From Candidatus Palauibacter australiensis (lineage in GTDB: Bacteria > Gemmatimonadota > Gemmatimonadetes > Palauibacterales > Palauibacteraceae): a stretch of 47,564 nt of DNA. Shown one piece after another: positions 40,955 to 47,564 of the stretch. The DNA lies in the NCBI GenBank assembly GCA_026705295.1, contig JAPPBA010000068.1:1-47564 (forward strand), in the 5' to 3' direction. Every line of letters begins with the position of its first letter. Within the stretch, counting starts at the first letter, position 1. The notes below the pieces were generated by a model that worked only from the letters and a program-made list of their open reading frames with translations, was not told the origin of the DNA and did no database searches. Made by a program: the position numbers and the translations under genes.

Positions 40955-42781
40955 ATGGCCATCCGATACGACTCTCTCCTCGCCCGGGCCCTCGCCCGCG
41001 AGATCCTCGACCGCTGGCGGGGCGTCCGTATCGCCGGCCTCCGCATGGCATCCGGACGGCGCGCCGTGGAACTCGCCTTCGAGGACGGGTCGCGGCTCGT
41101 CGCGATGCTGCACCCGCTGCACGGGTACGTCCTTGAACTGGGCGCCGATGCGCCGGCCTCGGGCGTGGAGGGAAAGGCGCTGCGGGTCGGACGCCTGTCG
41201 CTCGTGGACGCGCGGGCGCCGGCGGATGAACGCGCCCTGCTCCTGACGTTCGGCGACCGGGCGGGGCGACCGTGGGAGCAGCTCGCGATCGAACTCCCGA
41301 CCCGCGGCCGGAACGCCCTGCACTGCCGGCGAGAGGAGGAGTCCGGCGCGGAGCCCGGTCCGGCGGAGTCAGGTACCGGGGGGCCCGGCACCGAGGGGCC
41401 CGGGGGCGACCCCCGATCGGCGTGGCGCATCGAAGCGGCCCTCCTGGCGCGGGATGCGGGCGACCGCTCGCTGCGTCGCGGGGCGCCGTACGTGCCGCCT
41501 TCGTCCGCGCGGCGAGCGGTGGCCGCTCCGCCATCGGAGGCGGAATGGGCCGCCGTGCTGGCGGGAGACGAGGCCGACCGCCGGCGGGCCGTGCTGCGGA
41601 CGTGGGCGTGGACGAGCGCGCTCAACGTCGACTGGATCCTGGCCGGGTCCGATACGGCGGAGACGTACGCGCGATACCGGGCGCTCCACGCGCTCGCGGC
41701 GGCGCTTGAGCGCGGCCCGGCCGGGTCCGATGCGCCGGGCGCGCCGCCCCGACCGGCCTTCGTGCTCGACCGCCCGTGGGGCCCCCAGCCCTATCCGCAC
41801 CCCGCCCAGGCCGGCAGCGGGTCCGCCGCCGGACTGCTGACCGCGGCCGCGCAACTGCTCGCCCCCGGCGGCGGCCCCGCCCCCGCCCTCCAGACCCTCC
41901 CGGCGGCGGCCGACGACGACGACGGGGACGAAGCCGCGCAGATCCGGAAGCGCCTCCGGGCGCGCCGGAAGCGGCACCTGCGCCGGGCCGCCGCGCTCGA
42001 GCGGCAACTGGCCGCGGCCGGTCCGCCGGACGAGCCCCGCCTCCTCGGCCAGATCCTCCTCGCCCGCAAGGACGAGGTGCCGAAGGGCGCCTCCGCCGTG
42101 ACGCTGCCGGGCTTCGACGGCGCGCCGCGCGAGATCGCGCTCAACCCCGCGCGCGATGCGGTCGCCAACGCGGAGGCCTTCTTCGACGAGGCCGGGCGCC
42201 GGGAGCGCGCGCGGGAGCGCCTGCCCGAGGCGATCGCGGCGGCCCGGGAGCGCGCGGCCAAGTTCGACGCTCACCTCGAGCGGCTCGCCGAGTCGGGTCC
42301 GTCGGACGCCCTGTGGACCGCGGCCGGCGGGAGACCGATCCGCACCGGCGCGGGCGGGAGACGGGCGGAAGGCCCGGATCTCCGGGTGCCCTACACGCGG
42401 CTCCGGTCCTCGGGCGGGCTGGAGATCCGGGTCGGGCGCGGCGCCCGCGACAACGACGACCTCACCTTCCGCCACTCCGCGCCGGACGACATCTGGCTGC
42501 ACGCCTCCCAGGCCGCGGGCGCGCACGTGATTCTGCGCTGGGGGCGAAGGGACGAGAATCCACCGCGGCGCGACCTGCTCGAAGCCGCGACCGTGGCGGC
42601 GGTCCACAGCGGGGCGCGCCACAACCGCACGGCCCCGGTCGTCTGGACCCGCCGTAAGTACGTGCGCAAGCCGCGGAAGTCTCCTCCCGGCACGGTGACC
42701 CCGGACCGCGTCCAAACGATCTTCGTCGAACCCGATTCGGACCTCGTGAAGGCAATGGTCCGGCGCATGGAGGAAGCATGA
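40955..42781 (+). CDS. NFACT family protein (RqcH-like)
   Basis: A 608-residue protein with a diverged NFACT-N domain (about 1-200: YDSLLARALAREILDRWRGVRIAG, AMLHPLHGYVL), a coiled-coil segment (about 330-460, KRLRARRKRHLRRAAALERQLAA) and a clear NFACT-R domain (RDNDDLTFRHSAPDDIWLHASQAAGAHVIL, GARHNRTAPVVWTRRKYVRKPRKSPPGTV). NFACT/RqcH proteins bind stalled 50S subunits and add C-terminal tails for degradation. The alanine- and proline-rich spacer (about 260-310) is poorly conserved. It overlaps the next gene as ATGA. Confidence 0.85.
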   Translation: MAIRYDSLLARALAREILDRWRGVRIAGLRMASGRRAVELAFEDGSRLVAMLHPLHGYVLELGADAPASGVEGKALRVGRLSLVDARAPADERALLLTFGDRAGRPWEQLAIELPTRGRNALHCRREEESGAEPGPAESGTGGPGTEGPGGDPRSAWRIEAALLARDAGDRSLRRGAPYVPPSSARRAVAAPPSEAEWAAVLAGDEADRRRAVLRTWAWTSALNVDWILAGSDTAETYARYRALHALAAALERGPAGSDAPGAPPRPAFVLDRPWGPQPYPHPAQAGSGSAAGLLTAAAQLLAPGGGPAPALQTLPAAADDDDGDEAAQIRKRLRARRKRHLRRAAALERQLAAAGPPDEPRLLGQILLARKDEVPKGASAVTLPGFDGAPREIALNPARDAVANAEAFFDEAGRRERARERLPEAIAAARERAAKFDAHLERLAESGPSDALWTAAGGRPIRTGAGGRRAEGPDLRVPYTRLRSSGGLEIRVGRGARDNDDLTFRHSAPDDIWLHASQAAGAHVILRWGRRDENPPRRDLLEAATVAAVHSGARHNRTAPVVWTRRKYVRKPRKSPPGTVTPDRVQTIFVEPDSDLVKAMVRRMEEA

Positions 42782-43773
42782 ACGCGCCGCCCGCCGACGT
42801 TCCCGCGGGAACGTCCCGCGGCGAGGACGCGAAGCTCGACCGCGCCCGCGGCTGCCTCATCGGCCTGATCGCCGGCGATTCGCTCGGCAGCCTCGTCGAG
42901 TTCCAGTCGCCCGAGGACATCCGCCTCCGCTATCCCGACGGGGTCCGCGACCTCGAGGATGGGGGCACGTTCGACACGCTCGCGGGACAGCCGACGGACG
43001 ACTCCGAGATGGCGCTGGCGCTGGCCCGCACATTGATCGCGCGCGGCGCGTACGACCCGGAGGCGGCGAACGGCGCCTACCGGGAGTGGCTCGACTCGGA
43101 CCCGTTCGACTGCGGCCTAACGATCCGCGCCGGCCTGCTCGGAAACCCGCGCCGCGAGAGCCAGGCCAACGGGGCGCTAATGCGCATCGGTCCGCTGGGC
43201 ATCTTCGGCTGCCGCCATCCACTCGACGCGGTCGCGCGCTGGGCGCGGGAAGACGCCCGCCTCACGCACCCGCACCGCGTCTGTCTCGACGCGAACGCGC
43301 TGTTCGCGATGGCGCTCGCGCACGCCATCGACCGCGGCCCGACGCCACGCGCGTTGTACGATCGGATCGCCGCGTGGGCGAACGAGGAGGGGATCTGCCC
43401 GGACGTGCGGGCGTGTGTCGAGGCAGCCGCCGCCGGGCCGCCTGACGACTACATGACGCACATGGGCTGGGTCCTGATCGCGCTCCGCAACGCGCTGTGG
43501 CAGCTGCGGCACGCGCCGTCGCTCGAGGAGGGCGTGATCGACAGCGTGATGAGGGGCGGCGACACCGACACGAACGCCGCGATCTGCGGGGCGCTCCTGG
43601 GCGCGGTCCACGGGCTGGAGGCCGTGCCCGCGCGCTGGACCGGGCCGATCCTCCGCTGCCGCCCCGAAGCGGACCGACCCGGCGTCCGGCGCCCTCGCCC
43701 GAAGCCCTACTGGCCGACCGACGCCCTCAACCTCGCCGCTCAGCTCCTGCGTCCGGAACCCCCCGCGAGCTGA
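42778..43773 (+). CDS. ADP-ribosylglycohydrolase family protein
   Basis: A 331-residue DraG-like protein. DRARGCLIGLIAGDSLGSLVEF begins the domain at about residue 21, followed by GQPTDDSEMALALARTL and VMRGGDTDTNAAICGALLGAVHG, the two acidic magnesium-binding motifs. It should remove ADP-ribose from proteins or small molecules. It is coupled to the NFACT gene by ATGA. Residues 7-13 are encoded by the dispersed palindrome (DVPAGTS), so the leader before the domain looks like an insertion. Confidence 0.88.
   Translation: MNAPPADVPAGTSRGEDAKLDRARGCLIGLIAGDSLGSLVEFQSPEDIRLRYPDGVRDLEDGGTFDTLAGQPTDDSEMALALARTLIARGAYDPEAANGAYREWLDSDPFDCGLTIRAGLLGNPRRESQANGALMRIGPLGIFGCRHPLDAVARWAREDARLTHPHRVCLDANALFAMALAHAIDRGPTPRALYDRIAAWANEEGICPDVRACVEAAAAGPPDDYMTHMGWVLIALRNALWQLRHAPSLEEGVIDSVMRGGDTDTNAAICGALLGAVHGLEAVPARWTGPILRCRPEADRPGVRRPRPKPYWPTDALNLAAQLLRPEPPAS
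42796..42815. repeat. dispersed palindrome, copy 3
   Basis: GACGTTCCCGCGGGAACGTC, 20-bp perfect, encodes residues 7-13 of the ADP-ribosylglycohydrolase, 18 bases after its ATG. It is the only copy inside a coding frame and is identical to copy 1 over 20 bp. Confidence 0.9.
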
Positions 43774-43802: not shown

Positions 43803-46109
43803 TCAGAGGCCGATGGAGCCTTCGAGACTGGATCGGGGGACTTCGAAGGCGTTGACGAGGGGGAGAGCCTGGGGACGGATTTCGGCGCAGAGCGCGGTCA
43901 CGGTGCGGCGGATGGCCTTGCTCTTGGGCGGATCCAGATAGCCCTGCTCCAGGAACCACGCCGCCTCGCGCTCGATCGTGGCGAGCGCGTAGAGGCAGCG
44001 CAGGCGCTCGAGCCACTCGGCGACGCCGGAACTCGGCGTCCGCCCCTCGGCCGCGGTCATCGAGCGCAGGACCTCGCACTCGACGTGGGCCCGTGCGGCC
44101 GTGAGCGCGTGATGCTGGCAGTCCGTGAGGGCATCGAACGAGGTCATCCTGCGCGCGACCCGGTGCCGGACCCTCCGGGCCAGGGAAAGAACGAGATCCG
44201 AGCGGCGGGCATCGAGAACCGCGTCGTGGAACCCGGGGTCACGCAGGTGGGCTTCGCTCGTCTTCCGTGAGATGATCCAGTTGCGCTCGGCGATCGCGCG
44301 CCGCGCGCGGCCGGCGGCGAAGCGCGCGATGCCGAGCGCGCCGAGATCGCCGAACTGCTGGCGGAAGCCCGTGAGGAGATCCTTCGCCACGAGCTGCATG
44401 AGGACGGTGTTGTCACCCTCGAAGGTCGTGAACACGTCGCTGTCCGCCTTGAGCGCCGCGAAGCGGTTGTGCGCGAGGTAGCCGCGCCCCCCGCACGACT
44501 CCCGGCAGGTCTGGATGGTGTCCGTCGCGTGCCACGAGGCGCAGGCCTTGAGGCCGGCCGCGGTAGCCTCGAGGCGTCGCCGGCGCGCCGGATCCCCGAC
44601 CTCCGATTCGCCGGAGTCCCCCGGTTCCCCTTCCGCAGTCACCGCGGCCACGTACTCCGCCTGCAGATCGTGGAGGGCGAAATTGAGCGCGTACGTCGTG
44701 GCGAGGCGCGGGAGCAGTCGCCGCTGGTGGGCGGGATAGTCGAGCAGAATGCGCTCGGCCTCGCCCGGCGGACCGAACTGCCGGCGCCGCGCCCCATACC
44801 GGACCGCGATCGTGAGGGCGACCTTCGTCGCGCTGAGCGCCGCGCTCGCGACGGCCACGCGGCCGCTCACGAGCGTGCCGAGCATGGTGAAGAAACGCCG
44901 GGCCGGGCTCGCGATCGGACTCCGATAGGCCCCCTGATCGTCGATGGAGGCGAAGCGGTCGAGGAGGTTTCCCCGCGGCACGCGCACGCGATCGAAGTGG
45001 AGGCGTCCGTTGTCCACGCCGTTCAGGCCGAGCTTCTCGCCGCAGTCCTCGATCGTCACGCCGGGCAGCGGCCCTCCGTCCTCGCCGCGGATGGGGACGA
45101 GGATCGCGTGCACGCCGCGCCCTTCCCCTTCGACCTCGAGTTGCGCGAACACGGTGGCGAGGCGGCCGTCCCGCGCGGCGTTCCCGATGTAGTCCTTGCG
45201 CGCTCCCGGAACGGGAGTGTGGACCACGATCTCCCGCGTCCCGTCGTCGTACACAGCCGTCGTCTGAATGTCCTGGACGTTGGACCCGTGCAGCGTCTCG
45301 CTCATCGCGAAACACCCCGGGAGCGCCAGCGTGCCCGCGTCCCTCAGGTACTTCTCGTGGTGTCGCCGCGACCCGAGCTGGTGGATGCTGCCGCCGAAGA
45401 GCCCGAACTGGACGCCGAACTTCGTGAGCAGGCTGAGGTCGAAGAAGGCGAGCGTCTCGAAGGTGGCGATGAAGGCCGCGGGGTCTTCCCCACCCCCGAA
45501 CTCCGCGGGGTAGCTGAGGGCCCCGAGTCCCTCGTCGGCAAGCGCGCGGCACCACTCCGAGACCCGCGCGCGGTAGTCGGCCGTCGAGAGGCCGGTCGTT
45601 GGCTTGAACCGGCCGTCCGACAGCACCGCACACACGCGTTTCCGGGTCTCCGGCGCGGGGCCGGCGAGGAAGCGCGCCATCGCGCCGGCGTCGAAGCGGG
45701 GCCGGACGTCGGGAAGCGGCGCGATCGGTCGCGCCGGGTCGAAGAGCGTCGCCACGGCGTCTGGACCGCCCAGGCACAGCGCCTCCTCGATGCGGAGGAT
45801 GGCCGCGCGTTCCTCCCGCGTGGGGTGCTCGCCGTCGGCCTCGGCGATCGCGATGCCGAGTTCGGTGAGGGATCGCCTGCGCTCGGGCGAGACCTCCGCC
45901 GCCCGCCGCCGCACTTCATCGAGGAGGTGGAGGAGCCGCTCCGCCGAGGGGGGCGCGCCGGGGTCGAGCCACGCGGCGAGGGCTCCCTCGGGAAGCCCCG
46001 CCTCGCGCAGGTGCCCGCGCAGCATGGCGAGCTCTTCGGCCGCGAGTTCCCCGTCGGCCCACGCGACGTACAGGAGAGGATGGAAGGCGAGCGACTCCGG
46101 CCCGGCCAT
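43803..46109 (-). CDS. TerB-like/acyl-CoA oxidase fusion, 768 aa
   Basis: Residues about 8-115 are helical with FHPLLYVAWADGELAAEELAMLRGHL and ELGIAIAEADGEHPTREERAAILRIEEAL, like TerB-type helical domains with paired acidic ADGE motifs. The rest (about 140-760) is an acyl-CoA oxidase/dehydrogenase: ALSYPAEFGGGED, LPGCFAMSETLHGSN, IEDCGEKLGLNGVDNG, RRRQFG, HATDTIQTCRESCGGRGYLAHNRF and TFEGDNTVLMQLVAKDLL. The FAD-dependent core should oxidise acyl-CoA at alpha-beta; oxygen use is inferred from the oxidase-like C-terminal half. It starts 6 bases after the CDGSH gene. Confidence 0.88.
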   Translation of the reverse strand: MAGPESLAFHPLLYVAWADGELAAEELAMLRGHLREAGLPEGALAAWLDPGAPPSAERLLHLLDEVRRRAAEVSPERRRSLTELGIAIAEADGEHPTREERAAILRIEEALCLGGPDAVATLFDPARPIAPLPDVRPRFDAGAMARFLAGPAPETRKRVCAVLSDGRFKPTTGLSTADYRARVSEWCRALADEGLGALSYPAEFGGGEDPAAFIATFETLAFFDLSLLTKFGVQFGLFGGSIHQLGSRRHHEKYLRDAGTLALPGCFAMSETLHGSNVQDIQTTAVYDDGTREIVVHTPVPGARKDYIGNAARDGRLATVFAQLEVEGEGRGVHAILVPIRGEDGGPLPGVTIEDCGEKLGLNGVDNGRLHFDRVRVPRGNLLDRFASIDDQGAYRSPIASPARRFFTMLGTLVSGRVAVASAALSATKVALTIAVRYGARRRQFGPPGEAERILLDYPAHQRRLLPRLATTYALNFALHDLQAEYVAAVTAEGEPGDSGESEVGDPARRRRLEATAAGLKACASWHATDTIQTCRESCGGRGYLAHNRFAALKADSDVFTTFEGDNTVLMQLVAKDLLTGFRQQFGDLGALGIARFAAGRARRAIAERNWIISRKTSEAHLRDPGFHDAVLDARRSDLVLSLARRVRHRVARRMTSFDALTDCQHHALTAARAHVECEVLRSMTAAEGRTPSSGVAEWLERLRCLYALATIEREAAWFLEQGYLDPPKSKAIRRTVTALCAEIRPQALPLVNAFEVPRSSLEGSIGL

Positions 46110-46115
46110 GGGGTG

Positions 46116-46583
46116 CTACAGCCCCTCAGCCTCGAACGCGATCTCCTTGTGGGCCCCGTCGCAGAACGGCTTGTTGTTCGACGCGCCGCAGCGGCAGAGC
46201 CACGGCTGCAGGAAGCGGGCGGACCCCTCGTGCCCTTCTCCGCTGATCTCCACGACACCGTCGAAGTGCAACGGACCGTTCGCGTGCGCCGTGACGACCG
46301 CTTCCCCGACCTCCTCCCCGGACGCTGCCTCCGACCCCGATTCCGACTCCGGCCCCGGCTCCGACGTCGCGCGGCTCGTGTCGATCGTCCCGGAGGCCCG
46401 GAACTCGATGTCGCGGTGCGCCCCGTCGCAGAACGGCTTGTTCGCCGACTCCCCGCAGCGGCACAGGGCGGCCTTCGGCTTGGCGATACCGTCTTCCGCC
46501 CCCGCCGTGCGTACGCGGAGGGGACTCCGAACGAGCAGCGGGCCGTCGCCGCCGCAGTGAACGATGCATCCGTTTTCCGTCAT
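46116..46583 (-). CDS. twin CDGSH iron-sulfur protein, 155 aa
   Basis: Two CDGSH motifs are present: CRCGESANKPFCDGAH (C41, C43, C52, H56) and CRCGASNNKPFCDGAH (C130, C132, C141, H145). Each binds a 2Fe-2S cluster with three cysteines and one histidine. An acidic, serine-rich linker separates them. The protein is probably electron-transferring or redox-sensing and lies directly before the acyl-CoA oxidase. GGAG precedes the ATG. Confidence 0.92.
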   Translation of the reverse strand: MTENGCIVHCGGDGPLLVRSPLRVRTAGAEDGIAKPKAALCRCGESANKPFCDGAHRDIEFRASGTIDTSRATSEPGPESESGSEAASGEEVGEAVVTAHANGPLHFDGVVEISGEGHEGSARFLQPWLCRCGASNNKPFCDGAHKEIAFEAEGL

Positions 46584-46611: not shown

Positions 46612-47564
46612 TCAGGGGACGAGTTCGGTTCGCCTCGGTTTGAGGAGGAAGACGCCTTCGAGCATGCTCGTCACGAGCACGGTCCCGCTCTCGAAGTAGG
46701 GGAAGGCGGTCCACGCCCCGTTGAAACCGGGAGGATCGGCTCCGTACGGCGTGGTGTCGAAGTGCCCGACCTCCCGCAGGTTCTCGGGGTCGCTGATGTC
46801 GATGACGCGGAACCCGGCCTGGTAGTTGGCCTGGTACATCCGGTCACCCTTCACGTAGAGATTGTGGTCCGTCGCGTTGTTGGGTCCGTAGTAGTCCGCG
46901 ATCACGACGGGATCATCGAGATCGGTCACGTCCCACACGATCGTCTTCGTCCGGTCCGTCGTGCCGACGAGTTCGTCGAGTTCGTCGTCCAGGAAGAAGT
47001 AGCGCCGGTCGTCGCTCAGCCACCCCTGGTGAATGTACGCGACGCCGGGGTACGCGGCGGCCGAGATCGGGCGCGGGTTCGACTTGTCCGTGACGTCGAC
47101 GATCCGGAGCGCCGTCTCGTTCGACGCGAAGCACAGTTCCCGGCCCCGGTAGTCCGTGTCGGGCCCGTCGTACACGAGGCACTGCGCGTCGTGCGTCCGC
47201 CCCTGGAAGATGAGCCCCTCGGTGTCCGTGTAGCAGCCGGCGAACTCGGGCGCGAGCGGCTGGCGGATATCGATCATCACGAGGCCGCCGCCGCAGGTGT
47301 GCCCGTCTCCGCTCGTGGAGACGGTAAAGGCGGTGCCCGCGCCGGTGTCGATGATGAGGTTGTGGGCGCTCCCGATCCCGTCCCAGCGGAGGTCGGGCGC
47401 GAACTCAACCGGGGGACTCGGCACGTCGCGCAGGCGGGTGAGGTCGAAGACGACGAGACCGTGCGCGCCGGCCCCGTCCCCGGTGAAGAAGAGGTGGTCG
47501 GCGTAGACCTTGAGGTCGCGGGCACCGCTGCGGTTCGCGGGGATCACGCCGAGATACACCGGGT
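46612..47564 (-). CDS. choice-of-anchor B family protein, 5' end outside window
   Basis: The frame runs past the window edge, so the start and any signal are missing. Over 317 residues it shows LVIVD-type repeats: VFDLTRLRDVPSP, NLIIDTGAGTAFT, VSTSGDGHTCGGGLVMIDIRQP, IVDVTDKSNP, DVTDLDDPVVIADYYG, RVIDISDPENLREVGHFD. This is the choice-of-anchor B (TIGR04312-type) family, exported propeller-like proteins of unknown function. It is upstream of the CDGSH and oxidase genes on the same strand. Confidence 0.85.
   Translation of the reverse strand, partial: PVYLGVIPANRSGARDLKVYADHLFFTGDGAGAHGLVVFDLTRLRDVPSPPVEFAPDLRWDGIGSAHNLIIDTGAGTAFTVSTSGDGHTCGGGLVMIDIRQPLAPEFAGCYTDTEGLIFQGRTHDAQCLVYDGPDTDYRGRELCFASNETALRIVDVTDKSNPRPISAAAYPGVAYIHQGWLSDDRRYFFLDDELDELVGTTDRTKTIVWDVTDLDDPVVIADYYGPNNATDHNLYVKGDRMYQANYQAGFRVIDISDPENLREVGHFDTTPYGADPPGFNGAWTAFPYFESGTVLVTSMLEGVFLLKPRRTELVP

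Follow-up and report, generated by a model that had tools for sequence, protein, structure and literature searches.

A TerB-like domain fused to an acyl-CoA oxidase core across bacterial phyla, with a twin-CDGSH gene beside it in the Palauibacter genus

What does a TerB-like domain do at the front of an acyl-CoA oxidase (ACOX), and does a neighbouring iron-sulphur protein gene belong to the same unit? Both questions are raised by a gene (43803..46109, minus strand) in a stretch of 47,564 nucleotides from Candidatus Palauibacter australiensis (assembly GCA_026705295.1, contig JAPPBA010000068.1), the whole of which is called the window here. The host is a Candidatus Palauibacter-like member of the Gemmatimonadota, and the ACOX of the window is 96% identical to that of Candidatus Palauibacter rhopaloidicola. 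An original prediction had proposed a TerB-like domain joined to an otherwise normal oxidase, forming an acyl-CoA oxidation unit with a built-in sensor or with an electron partner encoded by the twin-CDGSH gene directly upstream. The gene is best read as a widespread ACOX subtype whose accessory domain is a half-site derivative of TerB; the fusion itself is genuine, occurs widely and is not confined to the source genome.

The oxidase core and the distribution of the fusion

The gene, delimited by its open reading frame (ORF), Pfam matches, an AlphaFold2 model and VIA-align, encodes 768 residues. Pfam matches revealed TerB at residues 12-114 (28.2 bits, curated cut-off 24.4), ACOX_C_alpha1 at residues 411-579 (155.2 bits, cut-off 27) and ACOX at residues 633-767 (80.5 bits, cut-off 22.1), with the acyl-CoA dehydrogenase N and M domains also present. 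The AlphaFold2 model, built on 47 family members, had a mean predicted local distance difference test score (pLDDT) of 87.6 and a predicted template modelling score (pTM) of 0.91; compared by VIA-align with Yarrowia ACOX1 (5y9d), the core was predicted to adopt an ACOX fold over its full length (Z 43.2, root-mean-square deviation (rmsd) 2.6, 600 residues), and the core model similarly matched human ACOX (Z 41.9) and rat ACOX (Z 41.1).

Alignment with solved ACOX structures, together with motif conservation, placed a complete ACOX core at residues 131-768 (43806..45719, minus strand). Its TFEGDN motif aligns with TWEGDN of yeast ACOX1, with Glu564 opposite the yeast glutamate, and E564, G565 and N567 are invariant in all 124 rows of our core alignment; the otherwise normal core that had been proposed is thus borne out. 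We take E564 of this EG[DE]N motif to be the catalytic base. The 124-row set, and the 99 fusions counted below, exclude the fragment L106, the repeats or near-repeats L083, L084, L126, L127, L131 and L170, and L001-L016, which repeat named loci or are fragments.

Genes for electron transfer flavoprotein (ETF) are present in the window's own genome and in 23 of the 23 genomes tested; ETF absence, considered as a sign of oxidase function, was therefore uninformative, and either O2 or ETF is possible as acceptor for the reduced flavin. The same genome holds eight acyl-CoA dehydrogenase middle domains, the fusion gene counted in. Two Gemmatimonadota ACOX genes carry an in-frame TAG (G107:C116:20549-22783 and G099:C39:28551-30797). 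An anti-phage role for the fusion protein and the CDGSH protein was rejected, as PADLOC gave no match for either.

We investigated the distribution of the fusion by a contig scan, which returned 80 loci (82 of 148 stretches confirmed) and was biased toward TerB-bearing genes, one of its six patterns having come from the TerB part. A hidden Markov model (HMM) detected the TerB-like domain in 58 of 79 ACOX reading frames (L032-L110); the 21 frames without it all belong to Actinomycetota-titled records, one of them beginning at a contig edge. Record titles place the domain in Gemmatimonadota, Acidobacteriota, Bacteroidota and Myxococcota, in Lujinxingiaceae, and in one record each of Planctomycetota, Calditrichota and Pseudomonadota, giving at least seven phyla, with hosts that include Myxococcus species; many of these records are metagenome-assembled genomes, and the single-record phyla may be binning errors. 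Two records with the domain (L069 and L110) are titled Acidimicrobiaceae (Actinomycetota) and carry isolate names of Acidobacteriota, so that the titles may be wrong.

Among 298 Gemmatimonadota genomes, ACOX was found in 65 (E <=1e-60) and the TerB subtype in 57 (E <=1e-5, one copy each, the scoring having covered up to 14 first-look candidates in each genome). The subtype stood at the start of the ACOX match in 56 of these 57; in G246 the domain lies on another contig and the ACOX match lacks its front. A truncated, 120-codon frame with an ACOX-type TerB-like domain was also seen at L111 (2971-3330); the 211 bases between it and the contig end hold no ACOX.

ACOX cores without the domain form an Actinomycetota clade (18 tree rows) and recur in several Gemmatimonadota. 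At L104, L107, L163 and L165 the upstream open frame showed no similarity to the TerB-like domain, and L163 may be a broken gene start. A quick tree of the 124 cores, with SH-aLRT as its only branch support, required five changes of domain label, versus a shuffled mean of 23.1. A possible reading is an early fusion, an Actinomycetota clade without the domain, and later losses inside Gemmatimonadota. Plasmid-borne relatives comprised 26 records, all below 60% identity; among the 15 matches listed, none starts before query residue 133, and the TerB part was not seen.

The TerB-like front domain and its possible role

The front domain spans residues 1-125 (45735..46109, minus strand), as delimited by Pfam PF05099, hhalign and conservation in 99 members. 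From 42 relatives outside the Palauibacter genus we built a profile of residues 1-165 and compared it with free TerB-type proteins of the class (26 of 31 matches were used, after removal of four ACOX fusions and of one match that had no locus). hhalign gave P 9.3e-7 with a score of 43.0 over 112 columns, whereas the controls, 19 with shuffled columns and one reversed, ranged from P 0.074 to 0.98 (scores 6-16), and six other ACOX segments gave P 0.0039 to 0.25 (scores 10-22). The proposed TerB similarity is supported by this comparison.

Several results weigh against this homology. The Pfam TerB model matched only 10 of 47 relatives at E <=0.01, and nine Bacteroidota sequences taken alone reached only P 0.0021 against TerB. 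The structural comparisons were weak as well: a separate model of residues 1-165 had a pLDDT of 87.2, and Foldseek with the isolated domain returned 58 matches at E <=10, the best at E 1.3 and none at 0.001, while VIA-align gave Z of at most 2.5, including a weak match to 2h5n (Z 2.3, 86 aligned residues, rmsd 4.5). The fold is not excluded by these values, and 2h5n (PG1108) is itself, we presume, TerB-like. A profile search of PDB sequences with the domain yielded seven matches, mostly designed proteins, with a best E of 0.053. Because the profile match beats its controls while the Pfam reach, the Bacteroidota subset and the fold search are weak, homology of the front domain to TerB is supported by sequence, at a distance.

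The two ADGE sites noted at the outset are both present in the window protein, as D19..E26 and D92..E99 with D-x6-E spacing, and a D..E pair occupies both sites in 25 of the 26 free TerB-type proteins. Across the fusions, the first pair is kept in 96 of 99 (D19 in 98, E26 in 97); the second is kept in 15 of 99 and, outside the Palauibacter genus, in only 5 of 87, so the paired ADGE is mostly a feature of the genus and not of the family. P11 and W17 are invariant (99/99), and P53-P54 is near-invariant. Judged by these residues, the domain would be a half-site TerB derivative.

The same counts weaken a built-in sensor that relies on paired ADGE sites, since most family members lack the second site. 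A domain gating the oxidase as a metal or stress sensor would fit the almost invariant first site, and a paper on DjlA notes speculation that its TerB-like domain acts in membrane or lipid interaction and in stress sensing. Against it, the 18 Actinomycetota rows and several Gemmatimonadota manage without the domain, and the cross-phylum neighbours scanned (SDR, FG-GAP, GSDH and patatin; a minority of clusters is annotated) include no metal or stress family by name. The sensor is possible and not favoured; we consider it improbable.

Could the domain instead anchor the enzyme at the inner membrane, close to acyl-CoA synthesis or to the quinone pool? Very-long-chain acyl-CoA dehydrogenase (VLCAD)-type enzymes use an extra domain for membrane tethering, which speaks for this alternative. 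In addition, a paper title indicates that TerB has been studied for membrane attachment, and a patatin-like phospholipase gene lies directly upstream in two loci, L108 and L049. The domain is acidic, however, with a median net charge of -8 (range -15 to +3 over 103 rows, four repeats included), and we regard a tether as distinctly unlikely.

We favour, as the probable explanation, an ACOX-type flavoenzyme, predicted to act in fatty acyl-CoA beta-oxidation, with a TerB-derived folding, dimer or docking domain and an independent CDGSH protein. The core would bind FAD and acyl-CoA; Glu564 would take the alpha proton and the flavin the hydride, and the reduced flavin would be reoxidised by O2 or by ETF. 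The TerB-like domain, which keeps D19/E26, P11, W17 and P53-P54 and has lost the second acidic site in most members, is presumably non-catalytic and would most likely help the enzyme to fold, dimerise or dock a partner, any metal bound being at most a single ion with a structural role. A metal-sensing site would also be compatible with the near-invariant D19/E26 pair, which counts against this explanation. A more ambitious proposal, that TerB was captured and remodelled into an ACOX-dedicated half-site switch (single-metal or partner-docking) which accompanied bacterial acyl-CoA oxidases through at least seven phyla and steers their assembly or electron passage, appears unlikely.

The twin-CDGSH gene and the wider neighbourhood

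The gene directly upstream (46116..46583, minus strand), identified by its ORF, Pfam and a motif scan, encodes 155 residues with the motifs CRCGESANKPFCDGAH and CRCGASNNKPFCDGAH. Pfam found two zf-CDGSH stretches (100.1 bits for the whole protein), the 3Cys-1His CDGSH motif, a putative [2Fe-2S] cluster site, is present twice by both Pfam and the motif scan, and the nearest solved relative is 3tbm (E 5e-14). Its stop codon lies 6 nt from the ACOX start on the shared minus strand. The twin-CDGSH gene and its position are as first described.

Within the Palauibacter genus the fusion occurs in 15 of 17 genomes, with ACOX 63-100% identical, and in all 15 a CDGSH frame, with no second CDGSH gene detected in the genome, precedes ACOX on the same strand; in G008 the pair is divided between two contig ends. 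CDGSH and ACOX are 3 or 6 nt apart in 10 of the 15, and in the other five the frames overlap or a start was not found or is uncertain. In G005 (L013 and L034) no stop closes the CDGSH frame ahead of ACOX, and it continues as a 444-codon open frame that overlaps ACOX in another frame, reflecting either a sequencing error or a real change.

Outside the genus, flanks of up to 3 kb per side were scanned (shorter at contig ends, and below 300 nt upstream in four named loci). The CDGSH motif was not found in these flanks at 69 of 69 named loci, nor at 46 of 47 Gemmatimonadota loci (three of these being on contigs already among the named ones), and it was adjacent to ACOX in none of the 47. The single flank match, L133, has CDGSH about 2.8 kb downstream of ACOX; the upstream side of ACOX is lost at a contig edge in L133, L147 and L152. 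Two genomes of the same order show a loose CDGSH-ACOX linkage: the two genes share a strand and are separated by about 5 kb in G037 and about 13 kb in G040. Furthermore, G012 and G013, congeners without ACOX, keep the CDGSH gene at the matching syntenic site beside trpA; CDGSH thus persists without ACOX, and this holds for either history, a loss of ACOX in these two or a gain in the others. In G012 (L204, 10656-11024) a single PF09360 match lies at this site, and the CDGSH gene may be shortened or frame-shifted.

The idea that the twin-CDGSH protein is a dedicated electron partner of the flavoenzyme draws on the same-strand position of the sole CDGSH gene in every ACOX-bearing genome of the genus and on the looser linkage in G037 and G040. 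Set against this are the lack of adjacency in the loci scanned elsewhere, the persistence of CDGSH in ACOX-less congeners, the presence of ETF, and the other genes of the block, which are equally syntenic; because the LVIVD and NFACT genes share this synteny, CDGSH adjacency alone is of little functional weight. We rejected CDGSH-ACOX as a general conserved redox unit, as adjacency was not seen outside the genus and ACOX-less congeners keep CDGSH. The pairing is not unique to the window's genome, as the genus shows, and adjacency was not seen in the other lineages scanned; the electron unit of the original prediction is accordingly unlikely, and a dedicated electron partner very improbable. 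The best reading is that the CDGSH gene is a positional, possibly co-transcribed neighbour of ACOX in the Palauibacter genus; the encoded protein would be an independent iron-sulphur protein, its gene probably co-transcribed with ACOX in this genus.

A choice-of-anchor B family gene with an LVIVD repeat (46612..47562, minus strand; TIGR04312 326.9 bits and an LVIVD match) precedes the CDGSH gene by 28 nt and runs off the end of the window. On the other side, an ADP-ribosylglycohydrolase (ADPRH) gene (42778-43773; TIGR02662 129.5 bits, below the cut-off of 337) is convergent with ACOX. The order in G002 and G005 is RlmN, LytR_C, HD, NFACT, ADPRH, ACOX, CDGSH and LVIVD, with trpA 1.5-2.2 kb on; it is RlmN, LytR_C, HD, CDGSH, trpA in G013 and RlmN, LytR_C, NFACT, HD, CDGSH, trpA in G012. 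The NFACT, HD and trpA labels are Pfam matches, and those of RlmN and LytR_C are our presumptive assignments. No ACOX, ADPRH or LVIVD match was found within a 19.5 kb stretch of G012 and G013, the former genome being 85% complete. Of 11 genus loci, two break off at contig edges; in the other 9 the LVIVD-repeat protein shows 88-99% identity, and it is more conserved across these loci than the CDGSH protein. At L041 and L042, more distant loci of the genus, no match was found between NFACT and ACOX.

We also clustered neighbouring genes over 83 loci (408 ORFs) with a crude longest-ORF caller, which sometimes picked antisense ORFs in GC-rich genomes; families were assigned from one to three representatives each, and annotation covers a minority of clusters. 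Neighbouring genes vary by lineage. A neighbour gene shared across phyla was rejected, as the largest cluster covered 7 of 83 loci and the cross-phylum clusters were small (SDR 5 loci, FG-GAP 5, GSDH 3, patatin-like phospholipase 2). The patatin-like phospholipase genes lie on the same strand as TerB-ACOX, at 1659-2888 of L108 (by Pfam) and 1763-2920 of L049 (by cluster).

Comparison with known systems

No title describing a TerB-ACOX fusion was among those listed by searches of an open-access library. The main text of PMC10469786 contains no occurrence of fatty acid, acyl-CoA, beta-oxidation or catalase, and in one paper that also mentions acyl-CoA oxidase TERB is a namesake, a meiotic protein. 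A paper on DjlA calls the role of its TerB-like domain poorly defined. Here such a domain is joined to an enzyme whose reaction can be assayed, and Myxococcus species are among the hosts, making its role directly testable. In addition, some bacterial genes called 'acyl-CoA dehydrogenase' belong to an ACOX-type subfamily with a front domain of its own.

The closest solved comparators are peroxisomal ACOX enzymes (Yarrowia ACOX1 5y9d, rat ACOX-II 1is2 and Arabidopsis ACX1 1w07), to which the core aligns with Z 40-43 at 27-29% identity and with which it shares the TxEGDN motif and the ACOX C-terminal domains. The fusion protein differs from them in being bacterial and in carrying an extra 125-residue TerB-like domain in front, and its oxidase activity is a prediction. 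Actinomycetota relatives (Nocardioides, Solirubrobacter and others) have the same core at about 48-56% identity; unlike the fusion, they carry no TerB-like domain detected by HMM.

Compared with the free TerB-type proteins of Gemmatimonadota (PF05099), the fusion domain shares 112 aligned columns and the same first-site D-x6-E spacing, whereas most of its members retain only the first acidic site and all add P11 and W17, with P53-P54 nearly so. It also differs in its company, being found with ACOX in all but one of the 57 genomes, the exception being split over contigs.

Finally, the window's CDGSH protein resembles known twin-CDGSH proteins (PF09360; 3tbm and CISD3 6avj) in its two C-x-C-x2-S-x3-P-x-C-D-G-A-H motifs. 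In several neighbouring lineages (L114, L115 and L118-L122) the twin CDGSH differs in lying within a longer protein (218-281 codons) that is extended at its N terminus by a RCIHAEECVKGLP-type stretch, which presumably resembles a YjdI-type domain, and in some of these loci a gene that we take to be DinB-like stands beside it.

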